Both the position numbers and the translations under genes were made by a program. Of a stretch of DNA of 7,191 nt, positions 1 through 7,191 are shown piece after piece; the stretch's first letter is position 1, and every line of letters starts with the position of its first letter. The notes beneath the pieces are model-generated. The model had not been told where the DNA came from and ran no database searches. It was given only the letters and a program-made list of their open reading frames with translations. The stretch comes from a bacterium (GTDB taxonomy: Bacteria; SZUA-182; DTGQ01). The stretch is taken from positions 1 through 7,191 of the forward strand of contig JBFLZW010000051.1 of the NCBI GenBank assembly GCA_040755755.1, read 5' to 3'.

Positions 1-7
1 CTATACC

Positions 8-49
8 GCTCAGTAAAATTGACCCGTCTGTGCTCAGATAAATTGACCC
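8..49 (+). repeat. Left terminal inverted repeat (two transposase-site copies)
   Basis: Two direct copies of a GCTCAG-n-AAATTGACCC motif begin at 8 and 32, exactly 24 bp apart. The 42-bp block matches the reverse complement of 5149-5190 at about 36 positions. IS21 ends are known to carry several transposase-binding sites, and these copies are the likely IstA sites. Confidence 0.85.
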
Positions 50-104
50 ACCTGTAGTAGGTTTTACTCTTATAGCTATCATTGGTAAAAATTAAGCCCA
101 TCAA

Positions 105-150
105 CAAAAAACCCCATCCTACTCATCGAAATTGATGTGGTAGAATGGGG
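105..150 (-). terminator. Intrinsic terminator, leftward
   Basis: Read on the minus strand, an 11-bp stem (CCCCATTCTAC pairing with 112-122, one G-U pair) is followed directly by six T residues (complement of 106-111). The inner CATC/GATG (124-127 and 133-136) can extend the fold. There is no T-run on the plus-strand side, so it works leftward only. It lies just inside the left end of the transposon, where no leftward protein gene exists. It could end a small RNA or antisense transcript, or stop transcription leaving the element. Confidence 0.7.
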
Positions 151-169
151 CATGTCGAAAATCATTAGT

Positions 170-198
170 ATTATAAGTCAAAACCTGGCTTTTTTATA
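170..198 (-). promoter_or_regulatory. Possible leftward promoter
   Basis: The minus strand has a perfect TATAAT -10 (complement of 170-175). The -35 placed 17 bp upstream is TATAAA (193-198), a poor match. A start near 163 would give an RNA of only about 55-60 nt ending at the 105-150 terminator. Spacing and -10 are good and the -35 is weak, so this is tentative. Confidence 0.3.
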
Positions 199-261
199 GT
201 AAAAATTCAATTATCCTACCAATTTCTTCCCAGATGGTACCGAGAGAAGGATATTCGGGAC

Positions 262-825
262 ATGGTATTACAGTATTACTATGTCCTTCGTTCAGTTCTT
301 CGGGCCAGTCCGCATTTACGGCAGTGCTTAACCAGGTGTAGGCATTGTCGGATTTTTTTCCTCACCCACCCCCGAAATGCCGGTCGAAGTGATCTTTTGT
401 GTCCATTTGGCTGTAGGCAGGCCCATCGCAAAGAGTGTTCAACGAAACGGAGTATCGAATACTACCGCACCGATGAGGGCAAAGCCAAGAAGAAGGCCCT
501 CAATGAGCAGCGGCGAAGCAGTCAGGAGCAGCAGGCGTGTAATGGAGACCATGCTGGCAATGCTGGCAGTAATGACGCTGATAGCAGTGATACTGATGAT
601 GAGAAACCATCTGGCCAAGCTTCTGAAACTGCCCATGCTTCTGAACCGGTCTATGATGAGGTCACAGTTCATTATCTTCAGACAATCATTGGCTTGATTG
701 AAGGCCGCTGGGTAAGTATGGATGAGATCCTGGCCATGCTGGAAAAGATCATGAGACAACACAGCATGGGAAAACGCAAAAGGTTCAGGTATGATTTTGC
801 TTACCCCAGGGCAGAGGTGCCGTGA
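262..825 (+). CDS. Zinc-finger protein of the IS21-like element
   Basis: A 187-residue protein and the first gene of the transposon operon. A conserved-looking N-terminal block (residues ~20-85) has a probable four-cysteine zinc site, C26/C29 and C47/C51, around the segment FLTHPRNAGR. It is followed by a very basic stretch ending in GKAKKKALNEQRR. A low-complexity, acidic and serine-rich linker (~87-130) joins it to a helical C-terminal region (~133-165). The block resembles, from memory, small proteins that recur beside ParB and IS21-type genes in other environmental bacteria; this was not checked. Zinc and basic residues suggest DNA binding, perhaps at the element ends or a target, but no function is established. 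An AAGGA at 247-251 lies ten bases before the chosen ATG; the first ~20 residues are the least certain. The stop is 34 nt before the ParB-like gene. Confidence 0.75.
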   Translation: MVLQYYYVLRSVLRASPHLRQCLTRCRHCRIFFLTHPRNAGRSDLLCPFGCRQAHRKECSTKRSIEYYRTDEGKAKKKALNEQRRSSQEQQACNGDHAGNAGSNDADSSDTDDEKPSGQASETAHASEPVYDEVTVHYLQTIIGLIEGRWVSMDEILAMLEKIMRQHSMGKRKRFRYDFAYPRAEVP

Positions 826-859
826 GGAGGAAAGAGGGTGCCATGAGGAAGGAAAAAGG

Positions 860-1795
860 ATGGAGAAGGTAGAGCAGGTAGAGATATCGAGTTTGGATTT
901 GCGGTATGAAAGCTACCGGATGAGGCATGAGGGAGCCGAGAAGGCGCTTTTGTGCTCAATTTCAGACTATGGCATCCGAGATCCCCTGGAGGGGGTTGAC
1001 ACCAGGGTTGACACGGGGGCAGGCACAGAAGATAAGCGGATTTTGCTCAATGGGTTCAAGCGCCTGCGCTGTGCCAGGAAGCTGGGTATCGGGATGGTGC
1101 CTTATTGCTCGCTCGGAACCGATGAGGCTATGGGGATTATCCACCTGATACGCATCTCGAATGCCAGGAGCTTGACTATCCTGGAGCAGGCCAGGCTGAT
1201 TGATGATCTTGTGCAGGTACACAAGATGGGCCTGCTGGAAATAGCCCAAAGCCTGGAGAGGAGCAAGGGATGGGTAAGTATGCGGCTTGGAATCATAGAA
1301 AAGATAAGCGATAGCGTGATGGAGAAGCTCTTCAAGGGGGAATTCCCGGTTTATTCCTACATGTATACTCTTCGCCAGTTCATACGTATGAACTCGAATT
1401 CCGGGCAGGGCAGTGAGGTTGACGAATTTGTAAACCTGGTGGCTGGCAAGAATTTGAGCATCAGGGACATAGAAAGGCTTGCGCATGGCTATTTCAATGG
1501 CCCCGATCATTTCAGGGAGCAGATCAAAAGCGGCCATATCGTGTGGGCCTTGGATCAGTTGCGGCAGATGCCCCAGGCGGGAGGCAATTTGAGTGAACCT
1601 GAGTGCAGTATGCTCAAGAGTCTTGAGATCATACAAAAATATATGCGCAAGGTTATCTATCAGGGGAAGGACGAGCGGTTTAAAAACAATTCCTTCTTTG
1701 CCCAGGCCAACCTTCTGGCAGGAGGAATTTTGAGTAAGCTGCCCATTTTCTCGAAGTCATTGAAGGAGTTCTATGATCGATCAGGACAAGCGTAA
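860..1795 (+). CDS. ParB/Spo0J-like DNA-binding protein
   Basis: A 311-residue protein with ParB layout. The N-terminal ParB/sulfiredoxin-like domain (~5-100) contains the box GFKRLRCARKLG (65-76), equivalent to the GERRxRAA region of ParB. A helix-turn-helix segment follows at ~121-145 (LLEIAQSLERSKGWVSMRLG), then a helical C-terminal part. ParB-family proteins bind specific DNA sites and many are CTP-driven clamps; no ParA partner is present here, so plasmid-style segregation is unlikely. In an IS21-like operon the protein may bridge transposon ends or pick targets (inference). The ATG at 860 is preferred over the in-frame ATG at 791 because it has a purine-rich ribosome site (848-859), avoids overlapping the preceding gene, and begins where the domain begins. 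The 3' end overlaps istA by 23 nt. Residues 47-54 contain a short duplicated VDT, from a 12-bp-period repeat at 993-1014. Confidence 0.85.
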   Translation: MEKVEQVEISSLDLRYESYRMRHEGAEKALLCSISDYGIRDPLEGVDTRVDTGAGTEDKRILLNGFKRLRCARKLGIGMVPYCSLGTDEAMGIIHLIRISNARSLTILEQARLIDDLVQVHKMGLLEIAQSLERSKGWVSMRLGIIEKISDSVMEKLFKGEFPVYSYMYTLRQFIRMNSNSGQGSEVDEFVNLVAGKNLSIRDIERLAHGYFNGPDHFREQIKSGHIVWALDQLRQMPQAGGNLSEPECSMLKSLEIIQKYMRKVIYQGKDERFKNNSFFAQANLLAGGILSKLPIFSKSLKEFYDRSGQA

Positions 1796-3302
1796 GGCTA
1801 TTTTTTTACTCCACAGGGAAGGCATGAAAATACGGGACATAAGTTTCAGGCTGAAGATAAGCCGCAATACGGTGCGCTCTATCATCAAGCAAGGCGGTAG
1901 GGCACCTTGTTCTGTGCGGGGGGACAAGATCATGATCGATCAAGAGCTTCTCGTCCGGCTCTACGATGAGTGTGCAGGCAGAATCCAGCGAATACACGAA
2001 AAACTGGCCGAAGAGGAGGGGGTGAAAATCGGCTACTCCACCTTGAGCCGCCTCATCCGAGAGCTTGGCCTTGGCGGGGCTGCCAAGGGCCGCTGCTGTC
2101 GTGTGCCGGATGAGCCTGGGGCAGAAATGCAGCACGATACCTCATCCTATATTCTGCCCATTGGCGGCAAAAGTATCAAGGTCATAGGCAGCATCCTGTA
2201 CTTCCGATACTCCAAGGTGCGCTATCTGAAATTCTACCGCTCATTCGACCGCTTTAAGATGAAATGTTTTTTTCATGAGGCGCTTACCTTCTTCGGCTAC
2301 AGTGCCAGGGTGTGTATCATTGATAATACCAACCTGGCCCGCCTTCGGGGCAGCGGGAAAAATGCCATTATCGTACCTGAAATGGAGCAGTTCGCCAGAC
2401 AATTCGGCTTCACCTATGTTTGTCACGAGCTGAATCACCCAAACAGGAAAGCCGGTAATGAACGCAGTTTCTACACGGTGGAGACCAATTTCTTCCCAGG
2501 CCGCAGCTTTGAGAGCATGGAGGATTTAAACCAAAAAGCCCTTGAGTGGGCAACGCTGAGAATGGCCAATCGGCCAGTGAGCAGAAGCGGCCTTATTCCG
2601 GCCAAAGCCTTTGAGCATGAAAAATCGTATCTGGTAAAACTGCCCCCCTTTGTTTCCCCACCTTACCTTGCCCATAAGAGGGACATCGACCAGTATGGGT
2701 ATGTAGCCTTTGATGGCAACTTTTACTGGGTGCCAGGCACCTCACGGGGAGAGGCCCTCCTTCTGCAATACAGCAGTGATCTTAAAGTTTACCTGGCTCA
2801 AAAGTTGCTGGCCGAATATCGCCTGCCTCCCTGGGGAGTGAAAAACCAGCTCTTTACCCCTGGCGGGGTGCCAAAACCAGAATATAAACCAAAGAACCGC
2901 AAAGAGCCAACTGCCCAGGAAGAAAAAAACTTGAGGGCACTGGACAAGGATGTGGATGCCTACCTTGAGTTTGTTCTCAAATCCAAAAAAGGCAAAGAAA
3001 AGCATAAAGTTATCAGAGAATTGTTCGGGCTGTATCAGAAGATCACCATGCCCTTGTTCATCAAGACCATCAAACGTGCTCTATGCTATCGCATCACCGA
3101 CAGCCGCTGTGTTGAGAGGATCGCTCTTTTGTACCTGACCGGCGGTGAGGGTGAAATCAGGCATGTCCCCATTGACCAGGAATTTCAAAAAAGACCAGCC
3201 TACCTTGAGGGCCGCCTGAGTGATGAAGCGAATCTGGCCGTGTATGAGAAGCTGCTGGAGGATGTGCTGGTGGAGCCGAAGGTGGAGGAGGATGAATCAT
3301 GA
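1773..3302 (+). CDS. istA: IS21-family transposase IstA (DDE recombinase)
   Basis: A 509-residue transposase that would cut and join the element ends. An N-terminal helix-turn-helix (~5-40, IRDISFRLKISRNTVRSII) is followed by a second DNA-binding helical region (~55-100). An integrase-core (rve) domain has the catalytic triad D122 (MQHD), D184 (IIDN) and E230 (KAGNE), with spacings of 61 and 45 residues, normal for IS21 transposases. A beta-barrel-like segment (~305-350) and a basic C-terminus follow. Length and triad are complete, so the enzyme looks active. The ribosome site GAAGGAG (1763-1769) lies inside the end of the ParB-like gene, and the two genes overlap by 23 nt, implying translational coupling. 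The stop overlaps the istB start as ATGA. Confidence 0.95.
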   Translation: MIDQDKRKAIFLLHREGMKIRDISFRLKISRNTVRSIIKQGGRAPCSVRGDKIMIDQELLVRLYDECAGRIQRIHEKLAEEEGVKIGYSTLSRLIRELGLGGAAKGRCCRVPDEPGAEMQHDTSSYILPIGGKSIKVIGSILYFRYSKVRYLKFYRSFDRFKMKCFFHEALTFFGYSARVCIIDNTNLARLRGSGKNAIIVPEMEQFARQFGFTYVCHELNHPNRKAGNERSFYTVETNFFPGRSFESMEDLNQKALEWATLRMANRPVSRSGLIPAKAFEHEKSYLVKLPPFVSPPYLAHKRDIDQYGYVAFDGNFYWVPGTSRGEALLLQYSSDLKVYLAQKLLAEYRLPPWGVKNQLFTPGGVPKPEYKPKNRKEPTAQEEKNLRALDKDVDAYLEFVLKSKKGKEKHKVIRELFGLYQKITMPLFIKTIKRALCYRITDSRCVERIALLYLTGGEGEIRHVPIDQEFQKRPAYLEGRLSDEANLAVYEKLLEDVLVEPKVEEDES

Positions 3303-4039
3303 TCGACGAGGAACTGGTCAAGATGATAAAGTTCCTCCGCCTTCAGGGATTGCTGGCCAATTGGGACAGGTTCCTGACTATGGCTCAGGAGGAAAACTTC
3401 TCCCATCCCCGCCTTCTCAAATATGTCATCGAAGAGGAATATAAAAACAAGAAGGAAAATTCAAGAAAAATGAGGCTCAAAAGGGCACAAATCCCTGAAC
3501 AACTGGTTATGGAAACCTTCCCTTTCCAAAGACAACCTAATCTGGACAGAAACAAGATCATGGCCATCTATGACTCCTTTGATTATATGGCCAAAACACA
3601 AAACATAATCTGGATCGGTCCAACAGGCACCGGCAAATCAGGGCTGGCCACAGCATGTCTCATCAAGGCCATTAATCATGGCTACAGCGGGCGATTCATC
3701 CTGTTCCCCGACCTCATCGAGGCACTCTATAAATCAAGAGCCGACATGTCCGAACACAGACTGATTAAACAATTTGCCTCTTATGATTGCCTGCTTATTG
3801 ATGAGCTTGGCTATGTCGAGATTGAACCTGTTCAGGTGGGTCTGTTTTTTACCCTGATGCAAAAAAGGCACAAGCAAAAGACGACCCTGATTACTTCCAA
3901 TCTTGGCTTTGAGCAGTGGATTTCATTTCTCAAAAATGACCAGTTGACAGCAGCACTGATCGACCGCCTGACGGAAAACAGTCATGTTATCAATATGAAA
4001 AACTGTCTCAGCCTGCGGCCTCGCCTCGTCCAAAGTTAA
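3299..4039 (+). CDS. istB: IS21-family helper ATPase IstB (AAA+)
   Basis: A 246-residue DnaC-like AAA+ ATPase that in IS21 binds and remodels target DNA and recruits the IstA-transposon complex. Visible motifs are Walker A GPTGTGKS (107-114), Walker B LLIDE (165-169) and a sensor-1-like ITSN (198-201). R223 in IDRLTE could serve as an arginine finger. The N-terminal ~80 residues form the family's helical targeting domain. Length is typical. The start overlaps the istA stop by 4 nt (ATGA), a classical istA-istB coupling. Nothing appears broken. Confidence 0.95.
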   Translation: MIDEELVKMIKFLRLQGLLANWDRFLTMAQEENFSHPRLLKYVIEEEYKNKKENSRKMRLKRAQIPEQLVMETFPFQRQPNLDRNKIMAIYDSFDYMAKTQNIIWIGPTGTGKSGLATACLIKAINHGYSGRFILFPDLIEALYKSRADMSEHRLIKQFASYDCLLIDELGYVEIEPVQVGLFFTLMQKRHKQKTTLITSNLGFEQWISFLKNDQLTAALIDRLTENSHVINMKNCLSLRPRLVQS

Positions 4040-4044
4040 TTACC

Positions 4045-4062
4045 TTTTGCCCGATGGCAAAA
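4045..4062 (+). other. Small hairpin between istB and the TOPRIM gene
   Basis: A perfect 7-bp stem TTTTGCC/GGCAAAA encloses the loop CGAT. It sits in the 45-nt gap after istB. Neither strand has a following T-run, so it is not a convincing terminator. It might protect mRNA or tune expression of the next gene. Confidence 0.4.
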
Positions 4063-4084
4063 AGAGAGCCTGAAGAAAAGGCAA

Positions 4085-5002
4085 GTGCATCCCTATATGT
4101 CTGATACCTTCAACGAGATAAAAAATAAGGCCAACCTTGTTCGCCAAATCGACCTGGTATCGGTCTTAAAGCTGATCGAAGCTGTCCAGGATAAATCCGA
4201 TAAGCATAAGTGGCATACTTCACAAGGTGTTATCTCTGTCTCAGGTACCAAATTCATCAACTGGAATAAAGGTATTGGAGGTGGCGGTGCCATTGATCTG
4301 GCTATCCATTTAAACAATTTCGATTTCAAAACCGCTGTCTTTTGGCTGGCCAGGACATTCCTCTCCGGTGATATGCACAGACCTTGTGATAGTAAACTCA
4401 TCAAGGAATCCGAGGATAGATGCATCCCAAGGTTCATCACCCCAAAGTCCACCTTCCAATCACCCCCAAAAGATGATACCAGACTGCCACAGGTAGTAAA
4501 TTACCTCCTGAATACTCGATCTATTCCCCTGCCCCTGATAAAATCTCTCATTCATTCAGGCAAACTCTATGCTGATATAAAAGGTAATGCAGTTTTTTTA
4601 CTCCTTGGAAAAGAAAAAAAGGTGGTAGGTGCTGAACTTCGAGGAACCACTCGGATACGGTGGCGAGGTATGGCTCCTGGATCGAGAAAGGACCTGGGCT
4701 ACTTCTGTGTCGAAAACCCCTCTGCCAAAAATATGGTACTTTGCGAATCTGCCATCGATGCTATCTCCTTTTTTGCCCTTTGCCCCACTTTCCTGGCTGT
4801 GTCAACAGCAGGTGCCAATCCAAACCCTCTCTGGCTGGCACCGTTTATCGATAACGGATATGAGATTTATTGCGGATTCGATTCTGATGAAACCGGAGAT
4901 CGGCTAGCTCAAAAGATGATCGCCCTGTACCCAACTGTCAAAAGGCTCCGGCCATCAAAACATGATTGGAATGATGTCTTGATCGACAAGTCAAGAAGTT
5001 AA
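4085..5002 (+). CDS. TOPRIM/DUF3991 primase-like protein
   Basis: A 305-residue protein and last gene of the element. The N-terminal part carries a glycine-rich segment WNKGIGGGGAIDLAIHL (60-76), as in the CHC2-like/DUF3991 region of mobile primase-related proteins. Residues ~139-190 match the DUF3991 style (YLLNTRSI ... GNAVFLL). A TOPRIM fold follows with E221 (CESAID) and the D-x-D pair D266/D268 (GFDSDETG), ending with HDWND. The metal-binding acidic residues therefore look intact. No cysteine cluster typical of a primase zinc finger is seen before the glycine-rich segment. Such domains occur in phage and plasmid primases and topoisomerase-related enzymes; here it may act on DNA intermediates of transposition (inference). 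GTG at 4085 has AAAAGG four bases upstream; ATG at 4097 (four codons later) is the alternative start. Confidence 0.8.
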   Translation: MHPYMSDTFNEIKNKANLVRQIDLVSVLKLIEAVQDKSDKHKWHTSQGVISVSGTKFINWNKGIGGGGAIDLAIHLNNFDFKTAVFWLARTFLSGDMHRPCDSKLIKESEDRCIPRFITPKSTFQSPPKDDTRLPQVVNYLLNTRSIPLPLIKSLIHSGKLYADIKGNAVFLLLGKEKKVVGAELRGTTRIRWRGMAPGSRKDLGYFCVENPSAKNMVLCESAIDAISFFALCPTFLAVSTAGANPNPLWLAPFIDNGYEIYCGFDSDETGDRLAQKMIALYPTVKRLRPSKHDWNDVLIDKSRS

Positions 5003-5148
5003 TCTTACTCCCTCCTTAAAAGCAACCCATTGCCCCTCAATAGCTTGTCCGTAAAAGTAAAATAACCTCATTACCTCATCCCTCACCTCTATCCACATCT
5101 ACAACTCCTGCTTCATACCCAGCTTATCGATTTACAGTGTGGATGAAC
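5003..5148. other. Noncoding right arm of the transposon
   Basis: About 145 bases between the TOPRIM gene and the right end. It is pyrimidine-rich on the plus strand with degenerate repeats of an ACCTCAT-like heptamer near 5066-5091. No gene or terminator with a T-run is seen. The repeats might be accessory protein sites, but this is weak. Confidence 0.4.
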
Positions 5149-5190
5149 GGTCCAATTTATCTGAGCGCACATGGGTCAATTTTGCTGAGC
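5149..5190 (-). repeat. Right terminal inverted repeat (two transposase-site copies)
   Basis: On the minus strand, GCTCAG copies lie at 5190-5185 and 5166-5161, again 24 bp apart, each followed by an AAATTG core. The inner copy reads TTGGACC in place of TTGACCC. The block aligns over 42 positions to 8-49 with about six differences. The match may extend to a shared CTAT just outside each end, so the tip is uncertain. Confidence 0.85.
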
Positions 5191-5191
5191 G

Positions 5192-5468
5192 CCATAGGTT
5201 TGACTTTGACCTGGACCCGGAAGAATCCCGGATCGTAGAGCGGGTATTCATGCTTTACTCTCAGGGCATCGGCTATGCCAGGATAAAGAAGCTGACCGGC
5301 TGTCCTCTCTCAATATGGGGAATTGCAAAGCTCCTGGAGAATCCATTCTATGCCGGTAAGGTGAAATTCGGCGGGATTGTGGAAACCAATAATCATCAGG
5401 CAATCGTATCTGAGAAGTTATTCAAAAAGTGCCAAAAGGTAAGAGAAAGCAAAGGATTAAAGGTGTAA
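5192..5468 (+). pseudogene. Serine recombinase, C-terminal part, interrupted by the transposon
   Basis: From 5193 onward the frame encodes about 91 residues typical of the Recombinase domain of large serine recombinases: FDLDPEESRIVERVFMLYS, a helical segment, then ENPFYAGKVKFGGIVETNN and a closing basic helix. Such enzymes integrate and excise phages and mobile elements. The N-terminal resolvase domain with the catalytic serine is absent, and the frame upstream of 5192 is transposon end sequence. The open frame extends to a GTG at 5139, but those codons lie in the terminal repeat and lack a ribosome site, so that start is probably meaningless. The C-terminus stops soon after the Recombinase domain, with no zinc ribbon or long coiled coil, so the parent was either a shorter member of the family or also truncated at this end. 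The missing 5' half should lie left of position 1 if the gene was split. Confidence 0.8.
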
Positions 5469-5470
5469 GG

Positions 5471-5635
5471 TATCAACTTCGTTAGAACGAGGTTGATAGT
5501 AGGGCAGGAATTAAAGGCGGTCTCGGAAGGTGGGCAAACACCATTCCGAGACCTGGCCGTCGAGGTTTTAACCGGAGCCTTACCACGACGGTTAAGTCAT
5601 TATCTCAAAAGGCTCCCTCCACGTAAAGAGAGGGA
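5471..5635 (+). other. Hairpin-rich noncoding region, possible structured RNA
   Basis: Four consecutive inverted repeats fill this gap. 5471-5498 is an 11-bp stem with one G-U pair and loop TTAGAA. 5519-5553 is GGTCTCGGAA pairing with TTCCGAGACC, extended by GGTG/CACC around one bulged base, with loop GGCAAA. 5557-5591 is CCGTCG/CGACGG, which competes with TAACCG/CGGTTA over 5570-5593. 5614-5635 is TCCCTC/GAGGGA. None is followed by a T-run, so they are not ordinary terminators. The position after an integrase gene also allows a recombination site. No known RNA family was recognised. Confidence 0.45.
5614..5635 (+). promoter_or_regulatory. Hairpin covering a ribosome binding site
   Basis: TCCCTC (5614-5619) can pair with GAGGGA (5630-5635), which is the ribosome binding site just before the ATG at 5638. 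Folding would hide the site, so translation of the 76-residue protein may be controlled. The stem is only 6 bp, so the effect could be modest. Confidence 0.35.
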
Positions 5636-5637
5636 AT

Positions 5638-5868
5638 ATGAATCACCATCCTTCAGATGTACCAGAAAACGTTTCCATTCCCGGAAGCAGGAAAAAAGAG
5701 CCTGACATCACCGCTTACCTGACCACTCCAGAGCTTGCCGAACTATGCGAGATCGGAGAGGCGCGGGGGGCAATCCTGGTCATACAGCAGTATCTAAACT
5801 CAAGGGAAGGGGCAATATTCAAGCTGGCTCGATCCCGTATGCCTGACGGTGGGAGGGCTTGCCCATGA
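5638..5868 (+). CDS. Small protein of unknown function (76 aa)
   Basis: A 76-residue protein I do not recognise. A polar, charged N-terminus (~1-25) is followed by a likely helical core, TPELAELCEIGEARGAILVIQQYLNS (~29-54), and a basic tail. There is no signal peptide, membrane segment or cysteine motif. A good AGAGAGGGA site precedes the ATG by a few bases, which supports translation, though the site lies in a small hairpin. It sits between the recombinase remnant and a likely origin or control region, where small regulators or excision factors are common in integrative elements; nothing in the sequence confirms such a role. The stop overlaps an ATG (5865) opening a 14-codon frame that ends at 5909, too short to call. 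Confidence 0.5.
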   Translation: MNHHPSDVPENVSIPGSRKKEPDITAYLTTPELAELCEIGEARGAILVIQQYLNSREGAIFKLARSRMPDGGRACP

Positions 5869-5919
5869 TCGACCAGGGGAGAGATGACAGCCTTCTCCTT
5901 GGGGCTTAATTGACGTTCA

Positions 5920-5954
5920 CCCCTGGCCAGGTTTACGGTGATCCTGGCCAGGGG
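5920..5954. repeat. Twin palindromes CCTGGCCAGG, likely operator
   Basis: The 10-bp perfect palindrome CCTGGCCAGG occurs at 5922-5931 and again at 5943-5952, 21 bp centre to centre, about two helical turns. Together they form a perfect 12-bp inverted repeat (5920-5931 and 5943-5954) with an 11-base spacer. It could bind a dimeric regulator cooperatively or fold as an RNA hairpin. No T-run follows. Confidence 0.6.
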
Positions 5955-5962
5955 GATTTACG

Positions 5963-6017
5963 GGTATGACACTGGTATGACACTGGTATGACACTGGTAT
6001 GACACAAATATGACGAG
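5963..6017 (+). repeat. Five 11-bp iterons (GGTATGACACT)
   Basis: Exact copies of GGTATGACACT start at 5963, 5974 and 5985. The copy at 5996 ends in A instead of T, and a diverged copy (AATATGACGAG) begins at 6007. The 11-bp period puts every copy on the same DNA face. The period is not a multiple of three and stop codons occur in it, so it is not a protein repeat. Likely a site for an initiator or regulator. Confidence 0.75.
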
Positions 6018-6056
6018 TGAAAACCCTAACACATTGAAATTTAACAAATTTTTTGC

Positions 6057-6085
6057 TTGTTATACGTAAAAAAATCTGATAATAT
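6057..6085 (+). promoter_or_regulatory. Rightward promoter, sigma-70 type
   Basis: TTGTTA (6057-6062) and TAATAT (6080-6085) are separated by 17 bp within AT-rich DNA. Transcription would start near 6092, immediately before the 6097-6121 hairpin, and read into the HTH gene and the RepA-like gene. The iterons lie just upstream, where a bound protein could activate or repress. Confidence 0.55.
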
Positions 6086-6096
6086 ACTGAAACAAA

Positions 6097-6155
6097 GCCC
6101 CTTAGTAGCGAGCTAAGGGGCGGGTGGGAAAAACTTAAATTTTTTGGCTCCTTAG
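6097..6155 (+). promoter_or_regulatory. Leader with two mutually exclusive hairpins
   Basis: GCCCCTTAG (6097-6105) pairs perfectly with CTAAGGGGC (6113-6121) around a 7-base loop. The same CTAAGGGGC can instead pair with GCTCCTTAG (6147-6155), with one G-U pair and an inner A-run/T-run stem. The two upstream-strand copies are direct repeats 50 bp apart. No T-run directly follows either stem, so simple attenuation is not proven. Confidence 0.45.
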
Positions 6156-6273
6156 TATATCAAATTTCCTGCCGTAACAACAACCCCATAAATCATAACT
6201 TAAACCTTGTTTTTCAAATATTTAGTCATTAAAAATAACTTACGATTACAATTTGTAAAGAAAGGAAAAACTA

Positions 6274-6504: not shown

Positions 6505-7191
6505 ATGGCAGAGCAGGTTGATGAGCAAATTGAGGCAATAATCTCCGCGAGGTATCAAGGCAGATCTGGTAAGGATTACTGGCAAGGCCAAGTAGTCGAT
6601 TGGGATATTGGCCTATGCCGTATTATGGCCGGACTGGGTATAGATGCTGACCGGATCGATCAGCTTATTAGGCTGGCTCCGGCATGGCCAGACATCGCCA
6701 ACAAATGGGATGGCCACCCCGATGACCAGGGCCGGACATATGGTAAGCGGACCATATTGCTGGCCACAGCAGCAAGCAGAGGTAAGCAGGCTCAGCCAGA
6801 CCAGCAAGCCAAACCAGTAACACCGAGCAGGCCACAACCAGCAAGTGCGGCAGAGTTGATGCAGCGGGATATACCGCCGATCCAGTGGATCATACCCGGA
6901 TTGTTGCCACAGGGCCTTACCGTATTGGCGGGCAAACCCAAGGTGGGCAAGAGCTGGCTGTCCTTACATTGGGGGCTCGGTGTGGCCTACGGCGGCAAAG
7001 TGTTAAGCTCCGTAGATGTACCACAAGCCGACGTGCTCTACCTGGCGCTTGAGGACTCGGACCGGCGATTAAGGGAGAGGATCGGCAAGCTTACTTGTGG
7101 ATCGGCGGTACCGAGCAACCTGTATTACTGTACGGAGTGGCCATGCTTGCCACTGGCAGCAATAGAGCTTACGGATTGGCTTACCGATCAC
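6505..7191 (+). CDS. RepA-like AAA ATPase with primase-associated N-terminus (partial)
   Basis: An open frame of 229 codons runs off the window end, so the C-terminus is missing. Residues ~30-88 (WDIGLCRIMAGLGIDADRID ... KWDG ... GRTYGKRTI) resemble the helical-bundle domain found in phage primase-polymerases of the NrS-1 type and related replication proteins. A proline- and glutamine-rich linker (~95-115) leads to a RepA/RecA-like ATPase with Walker A GKPKVGKS (143-150) and a probable Walker B strand VLYLALED (177-184). Such proteins load or act as the replicative helicase of plasmids, phages and satellites. GGAGG (6494-6498) precedes the ATG by six bases, a strong ribosome site. The iteron-bearing region upstream may be its origin. 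Confident as a replication ATPase; whether it also contains a primase domain cannot be seen. Confidence 0.8.
   Translation, partial: MAEQVDEQIEAIISARYQGRSGKDYWQGQVVDWDIGLCRIMAGLGIDADRIDQLIRLAPAWPDIANKWDGHPDDQGRTYGKRTILLATAASRGKQAQPDQQAKPVTPSRPQPASAAELMQRDIPPIQWIIPGLLPQGLTVLAGKPKVGKSWLSLHWGLGVAYGGKVLSSVDVPQADVLYLALEDSDRRLRERIGKLTCGSAVPSNLYYCTEWPCLPLAAIELTDWLTDH

Follow-up and report, generated by a model that had tools for sequence, protein, structure and literature searches.

Background

The IS21 family of insertion sequences (IS) provides one of the simplest model systems of ATP-dependent DDE transposition, its IstA and IstB proteins being related to MuA/MuB and TnsB/TnsC. The family is described as having two genes only, istA and istB, whose products suffice for the canonical elements (PMC10122671). 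Here we analyze a stretch of 7,191 nucleotides (the window: positions 1 to 7,191 of contig JBFLZW010000051.1, assembly GCA_040755755.1) from a bacterium of the SZUA-182 lineage, which opens with a recently mobile, IS21-related transposon that has five genes between its ends, in the order zinc finger, ParB-like, IstA, IstB and TOPRIM. Taking all the evidence together, we favor, at a rough probability of 0.6, the reading that this is an IS21-related DDE transposon with an operon headed by zinc-finger and ParB-like genes, a first gene that is doubly gated, and an exchangeable fifth module. A preliminary description, made from the letters of the window alone, had already recognized an IS21-like transposon carrying ParB-like, zinc-finger and TOPRIM genes, and this is borne out by the ends, an 8-bp target duplication and matches to the relevant protein families.

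A broad clade that keeps a ParB-like gene beside its transposase, usually behind a translationally controlled zinc-finger gene, would show how factors for targeting or regulation have been added to a two-gene system, and would offer a natural set for probing what accessory factors add. In the open-licence papers on IS21 elements with ParB, passenger genes or frameshifting we found no description of such a clade, although a listing in ISfinder is possible.

Results and discussion

Limits and mobility of the element

The element occupies positions 1-5197 of the window (Table 1); the preliminary description had located it correctly, with limits (7-5191) that need this small correction. Its inverted ends (1-45 and 5153-5197) show 87% complementarity, and in each of them a 24-bp unit, GCTCAG..AAATTGACCC, occurs twice. 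Both ends are found again at contig edges of the same assembly (5.26 Mb in 88 contigs), where the final 127 bases of contig C78 are the left end of the element and the initial 125 bases of contig C44 its right end. The two junctions, ...GGTAGTAA/CTATACC and CATAG/GGTAGTAA... (the slash marking the boundary), display a perfect 8-bp target duplication that directly abuts the ends. As the flanks on C78 and C44 share the duplication of one insertion and the right flank in the window is a different one, the genome holds no fewer than two near-identical copies of the element, a sign that it moved recently. The interior was assembled only once, and we infer that it is the same across copies. The left flank of the window copy is missing and was not recovered via a search with the resolvase family; at this second left flank the expected duplication is GTTTGACT. 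A lone, decayed zinc-finger gene fragment at G000:C76:20639-21062 (L002, L025), 89% identical to window positions 371-765 and with no istA nearby, is a relic of another copy of the element.

Table 1. Features of the window and their coordinates
Feature	Position	Strand	Remarks
Left end	1..55	+	terminal CTATA, then two 24-bp direct repeats (8-31, 32-55) containing GCTCAG..AAATTGACCC
RNA hairpin	112..150	+	3' arm contains purine-rich ribosome-binding region of first gene
0-frame leader MSKIISIISQNLAFL, then TAG stop	152..199	+	N-terminus of zinc-finger gene; pattern M..xISxISxxLAFL conserved in relatives
-1 slippery heptamer U UUU UUA	190..196	+	0-frame stop directly after
Zinc-finger protein, -1 frame	196..825	+	C-x2-C...CPFGC motif, basic helices; plain open reading frame listed from 262
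ParB-like protein	860..1795	+	ParB-N, helix-turn-helix (HTH) and unmatched C-terminal region
IstA, DDE transposase	1773..3302	+	overlaps ParB by 23 nt; homologous to IS5376 IstA (8q4d/8b4h)
IstB helper ATPase (AAA+)	3299..4039	+	ATGA overlap with istA
DUF3991/TOPRIM primase-like protein	4085..5002	+	DUF3991 6e-13, Toprim_2 5e-10; slot variable in relatives
Right end	5149..5197	-	two repeats; terminus ...CATAG
Flank: C-terminal part of large serine recombinase	5198..5468	+	Recombinase PF07508 8e-9, integrase phrog_95

The transposition proteins

The operon is tightly packed, with reading frames that partly overlap; istA and istB form its downstream half, and the zinc-finger and parB-like genes stand at its head. 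IstA matches the IS21 transposase model NF033546 (1.2e-35; score 123.5, below the curated cut-off of 160) and, by profile comparison, the IS5376 IstA of solved structure (E 5e-16). Its catalytic triad (D122, D184 and E230) is unchanged in all 13 aligned proteins, and it is only about 25% identical to IS21 transposases sampled on plasmids. IstB is recovered by PF01695 (4e-50) and by NF038214 (1e-58; 198.7 bits, below the curated cut-off of 200). The target duplication is 8 bp in the window element and in a relative on plasmid pHRM2a of Desulforapulum autotrophicum HRM2 (where it reads GTGGAGGC), and 4-6 bp in the relatives L008, L015, L017 and L020; none was seen in L007, L009 and L013. The DDE IstA, the AAA+ IstB, the repeated ends and the duplications of 4-8 bp are all IS21-like, and new transposition chemistry is not indicated. 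Scans of the window returned no match in Rfam and, for promoters and terminators, nothing above chance level.

A ParB-bearing clade of relatives

One scan of genome contigs yielded 16 loci with IstA proteins 53-65% identical to that of the window, in bins labelled as Bacteroidetes, Oligoflexia, Spirochaetales, Planctomycetota, Verrucomicrobia, Fibrobacter, Riflebacteria and several Desulfobacterota/Deltaproteobacteria; these labels belong to single contigs in bins, where label errors are possible. Viral contigs scanned with the IstA profile held no relative. The ends of the relatives are equivalent to those of the window element. In every clade relative whose contig extends far enough the gene immediately upstream of istA is ParB-like, usually with a zinc-finger gene, of which there are several types, ahead of it in turn, and a ParB-like gene likewise lies upstream of more distant IstAs in whole genomes (about 28-35% identity to the window protein where directly compared). 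In the IstA tree the 25 ParB-bearing rows, which span many phyla, form one clade with support of 100/99, separate from the istA/istB-only IS21 elements and from two further loci, L121 and L122. Moreover, the identities of ParB and IstA correlate across 13 elements (r 0.89, Mantel p 2e-4). Viewed from the side of the ParB family, profile matches better than 1e-20 adjoin istA, bar one exception that could not be checked, and those weaker than about 1e-12 resemble ordinary ParB/Noc genes. Strong matches are confined to the neighborhood of istA, the exceptions being two truncated copies that sit at the edges of contigs, where the presence of istA cannot be checked (G003, 4.5e-38, with a stop; G017, 2.6e-14). 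In a distant relative, L060, a winged-helix (HTH_36) gene at 1016-1456 lies between the zinc-finger and ParB genes, representing a longer form of the operon.

The fifth gene behaves differently. The window protein has the catalytic Glu and DxD of TOPRIM domains (in CESAID and GFDSDETGD), lacks the zinc-binding cysteines of CHC2 and has no sequence match in PDB. A TOPRIM gene also fills this slot in L014, L017, L064, L065 and L066, with a remnant in L020; in L010, L011, L013, L015, L021, L061 and the pHRM2a element the slot holds a DnaG-type CHC2 zinc-finger protein, and its cysteines are found in the L010 and L013 versions. In L022 the fifth gene is absent and the right end follows directly after istB, and in L007 and L009 nothing recognizable occupies the slot. 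A small, unmatched and unrelated protein is found there in L008 (3955-4275; no Pfam support), by eye possibly one that binds single-stranded DNA. In L018 a tyrosine recombinase and a second transposase-like gene come after istB (4003-6161), and are perhaps another inserted element.

The preliminary description had described a five-gene unit, had raised the question whether its three extra genes keep to this istA clade, and had named close relatives with the same ends but without these genes as evidence that would speak against it. Such relatives exist for the TOPRIM gene, which is replaced or missing in them, and not for the ParB gene, which keeps its place directly upstream of istA and co-diverges with it. 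On sequence comparison the conserved core consists of four genes, those for the zinc finger, ParB, IstA and IstB, and the fifth slot is exchangeable, its occupants being for the most part predicted derivatives of primases. It might alternatively be supposed that the extra genes are passengers, useless to transposition, that were caught in a compound transposon, as the sufficiency of IstA and IstB in canonical IS21 elements (PMC10122671) and the variability of the fifth gene would allow. We consider this highly improbable, given that each of the 25 clade members has ParB next to istA, that ParB and IstA diverge in step, that the reading frames overlap, and that conserved control elements lie upstream of them.

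The ParB-like protein

The ParB-like protein is only weakly detected by Pfam, but its profile matched the solved structures of Spo0J/ParB/Noc (best 6.9e-9, Spo0J 6sdk), and a Foldseek search with its AlphaFold2 model ranked ParB first. Compared with 1vz0, the HTH part reached a Z of 8.5, which is middling. The model is itself of middling quality (mean pLDDT 67.6) with an N-terminal domain of such low confidence that the nucleotide pocket is not to be judged from it. Based on these matches, the protein is a true ParB homologue, with a predicted ParB-N and HTH fold. While it shares this homology with ParB, Noc and KorB, it departs from them in several respects: in all aligned relatives the ENxQR nucleotide motif is absent, with an R-x-SNAxS type sequence in its place, and GERR is changed to an invariant GFKR; furthermore, the C-terminal region is unmatched and there is no ParA gene within the element.

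These departures bear on the view taken in the preliminary description, namely that a ParB-like, CTP-dependent sliding clamp bridges the ends or marks targets and a primase-like enzyme starts replication, together amounting to a new mode of transposition. The true ParB homology, the retained TOPRIM catalytic residues and the presence of a primase-derived fifth gene of some kind in most elements would agree with it. Nevertheless, because ENxQR is absent, a CTP-dependent clamp is not supported; the change to GFKR in all aligned relatives and the loss or replacement of the fifth gene in relatives with the same ends tell further against this view, and the low-confidence N-terminal domain of the model lends it nothing. 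We therefore hold it to be distinctly unlikely, and posit instead that the ParB-like protein might act as a sequence-specific HTH protein rather than as a CTP-driven clamp.

The zinc-finger gene and its probable translational control

The zinc-finger gene had been listed as a plain open reading frame starting at 262, and the control region ahead of it, a hairpin and a frameshift site at 112-196, had been overlooked. The gene is indeed present, but its coding region spans 152-825 and includes a predicted -1 frameshift, the plain frame having no good start codon close to the conserved N-terminus. An ATG at 152, just 3' of the hairpin, opens a leader of 15 codons closed by TAG, and past U UUU UUA the -1 frame runs on as IVKIQLSYQFLPRWYRE... 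into the zinc-finger protein. The heptamer is found in the same phase in 10 elements, as TTTTTTA in five, TTTTTTG in four and GGGTTTA in L017; a conserved heptamer of this form (X XXY YYZ), set in phase where the leader gives way to the main frame, is the mark of a programmed -1 frameshift. Slippage of RNA polymerase was considered as an alternative to a ribosomal frameshift and is less likely, because GGGTTTA in L017 keeps the X XXY YYZ form without a run of six Ts.

The hairpin folds more stably than shuffled sequences (z -3.1). Across nine elements 5 of its 11 pairs are altered on both sides, with 13 compensatory cells, and none of 500 shuffles matched this number or the covariation score. 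With a simple shuffle control, similar hairpins, likewise over the ribosome-binding site, were found ahead of the first gene in L016, L061, L121 and L122 (another zinc-finger type) and a weak one in L028, and none was shown in L060. In light of these conserved signals the first gene appears to be restrained by an RNA hairpin together with a programmed ribosomal frameshift, which we would predict to operate in cells. As for the protein itself, sequence searches of Pfam, PHROG and PDB and a Foldseek search with its model gave no significant match. The zinc-finger types compared by profile match each other only weakly (E 2e-4 and 8e-4, probability 50 and 24%), and their common origin is plausible.

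The position of these genes at the head of the operon, the weak KorB/HTH_ParB matches, and the hairpin and frameshift that already gate translation could also be read as signs that the zinc-finger and ParB-like proteins are plain KorB-like transcription regulators, which silence the operon and hold activity at a low, controlled level without any part in the transposition reaction. We looked elsewhere in the element for further operator copies of the hairpin arm and found none that was convincing; besides, the tight co-divergence of ParB and IstA fits contact within a transpososome or co-evolving ends, though shared descent alone could suffice for it. Accordingly, we regard a purely regulatory role as possible, if somewhat unlikely.

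Proposed mechanism

Under the favored reading of an IS21-related transposon with a gated accessory operon, movement itself would follow the IS21 pattern: IstA would bind the repeated ends and join them to target DNA in whose choice the AAA+ IstB takes part, producing the 8-bp duplication. The first gene would be held down twice at the level of translation, the ribosome-binding site being enclosed in the hairpin and the full zinc-finger protein requiring the -1 frameshift. We propose that the zinc-finger and ParB-like proteins might serve as dose-limited DNA-binding factors that bind the ends, aid synapsis and/or repress the operon, and favor a mix of end binding and autoregulation over any single role. 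The fifth gene would be a module open to exchange, in most cases derived from a primase (CHC2-like, either with TOPRIM or lacking it), for which help at the replication fork or repair after insertion may be offered as a guess. For all three accessory proteins, these roles are inferred. A bolder extension, to which we give little credence, is that the ParB-derived protein, the zinc finger and the usually primase-derived module are working parts of the transpososome, such that transposition by IstA and IstB is coupled to DNA undergoing replication or to a selected target and metered by the frameshifting of the accessory gene.

Several observations weigh against the favored reading. L121 (1041-4101) and L122 are IS21-like elements without ParB, in which istA is preceded by a zinc-finger gene together with a small winged-helix gene (weak HTH_36). 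The ends of the window element read CTAT...ATAG with the duplication directly abutting them, whereas in IS5376 a terminal CA carries the donor 3'-OH (PMC10122671). With regard to translational control, 3 of the 10 frameshift elements (L019, L065 and L066) show no clear start codon immediately 3' of the hairpin, an indel adjoins the slip site in L015, which is nearly identical to L013, and L020 neither has nor needs a frameshift. Finally, the accessory genes could be mere passengers, because istA/istB-only IS21 elements move without them.

DNA beyond the right end

The partial serine recombinase that follows the right end was probably interrupted by the insertion of the element. Downstream of it, and upstream of a RepA-like AAA_25 protein (6505-7191), are four tandem 11-bp repeats of the unit ACTGGTATGAC (5960-6014). 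These iteron-like repeats suggest that the flanking DNA belongs to an integrative element or a plasmid-like unit.

Comparison with known systems

With the IS21 family (IS21, IS5376) the element shares an IS21-type DDE IstA, an AAA+ IstB encoded in an overlapping frame, two repeats in each terminal inverted repeat and a short target duplication (PMC10122671). It differs in having two or three extra genes, ends of the form CTAT..ATAG and a divergent IstA. Because neither the two-gene content stated for the family nor the terminal CA of its model element is found, we do not file it as a plain IS21 member, and it is best called a member of an IS21-related clade. The pHRM2a element has the same gene order, the same type of ends and a duplication of the same length, but another zinc-finger type and CHC2 in place of TOPRIM. 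It is annotated not as a transposon but as separate genes for a hypothetical protein, ParB, an HTH protein, an ATP-binding protein and a CHC2 protein. The clade also carries a warning for annotation: among the genes labelled chromosome partitioning protein ParB, some are components of transposons. In other insertion sequences, -1 frameshifting (IS3-type) and hairpins that hide the Shine-Dalgarno sequence (IS10/IS50-type) are known as control devices; the element has the same kinds of translational gating, but here the gates sit on the accessory zinc-finger gene rather than on the transposase.

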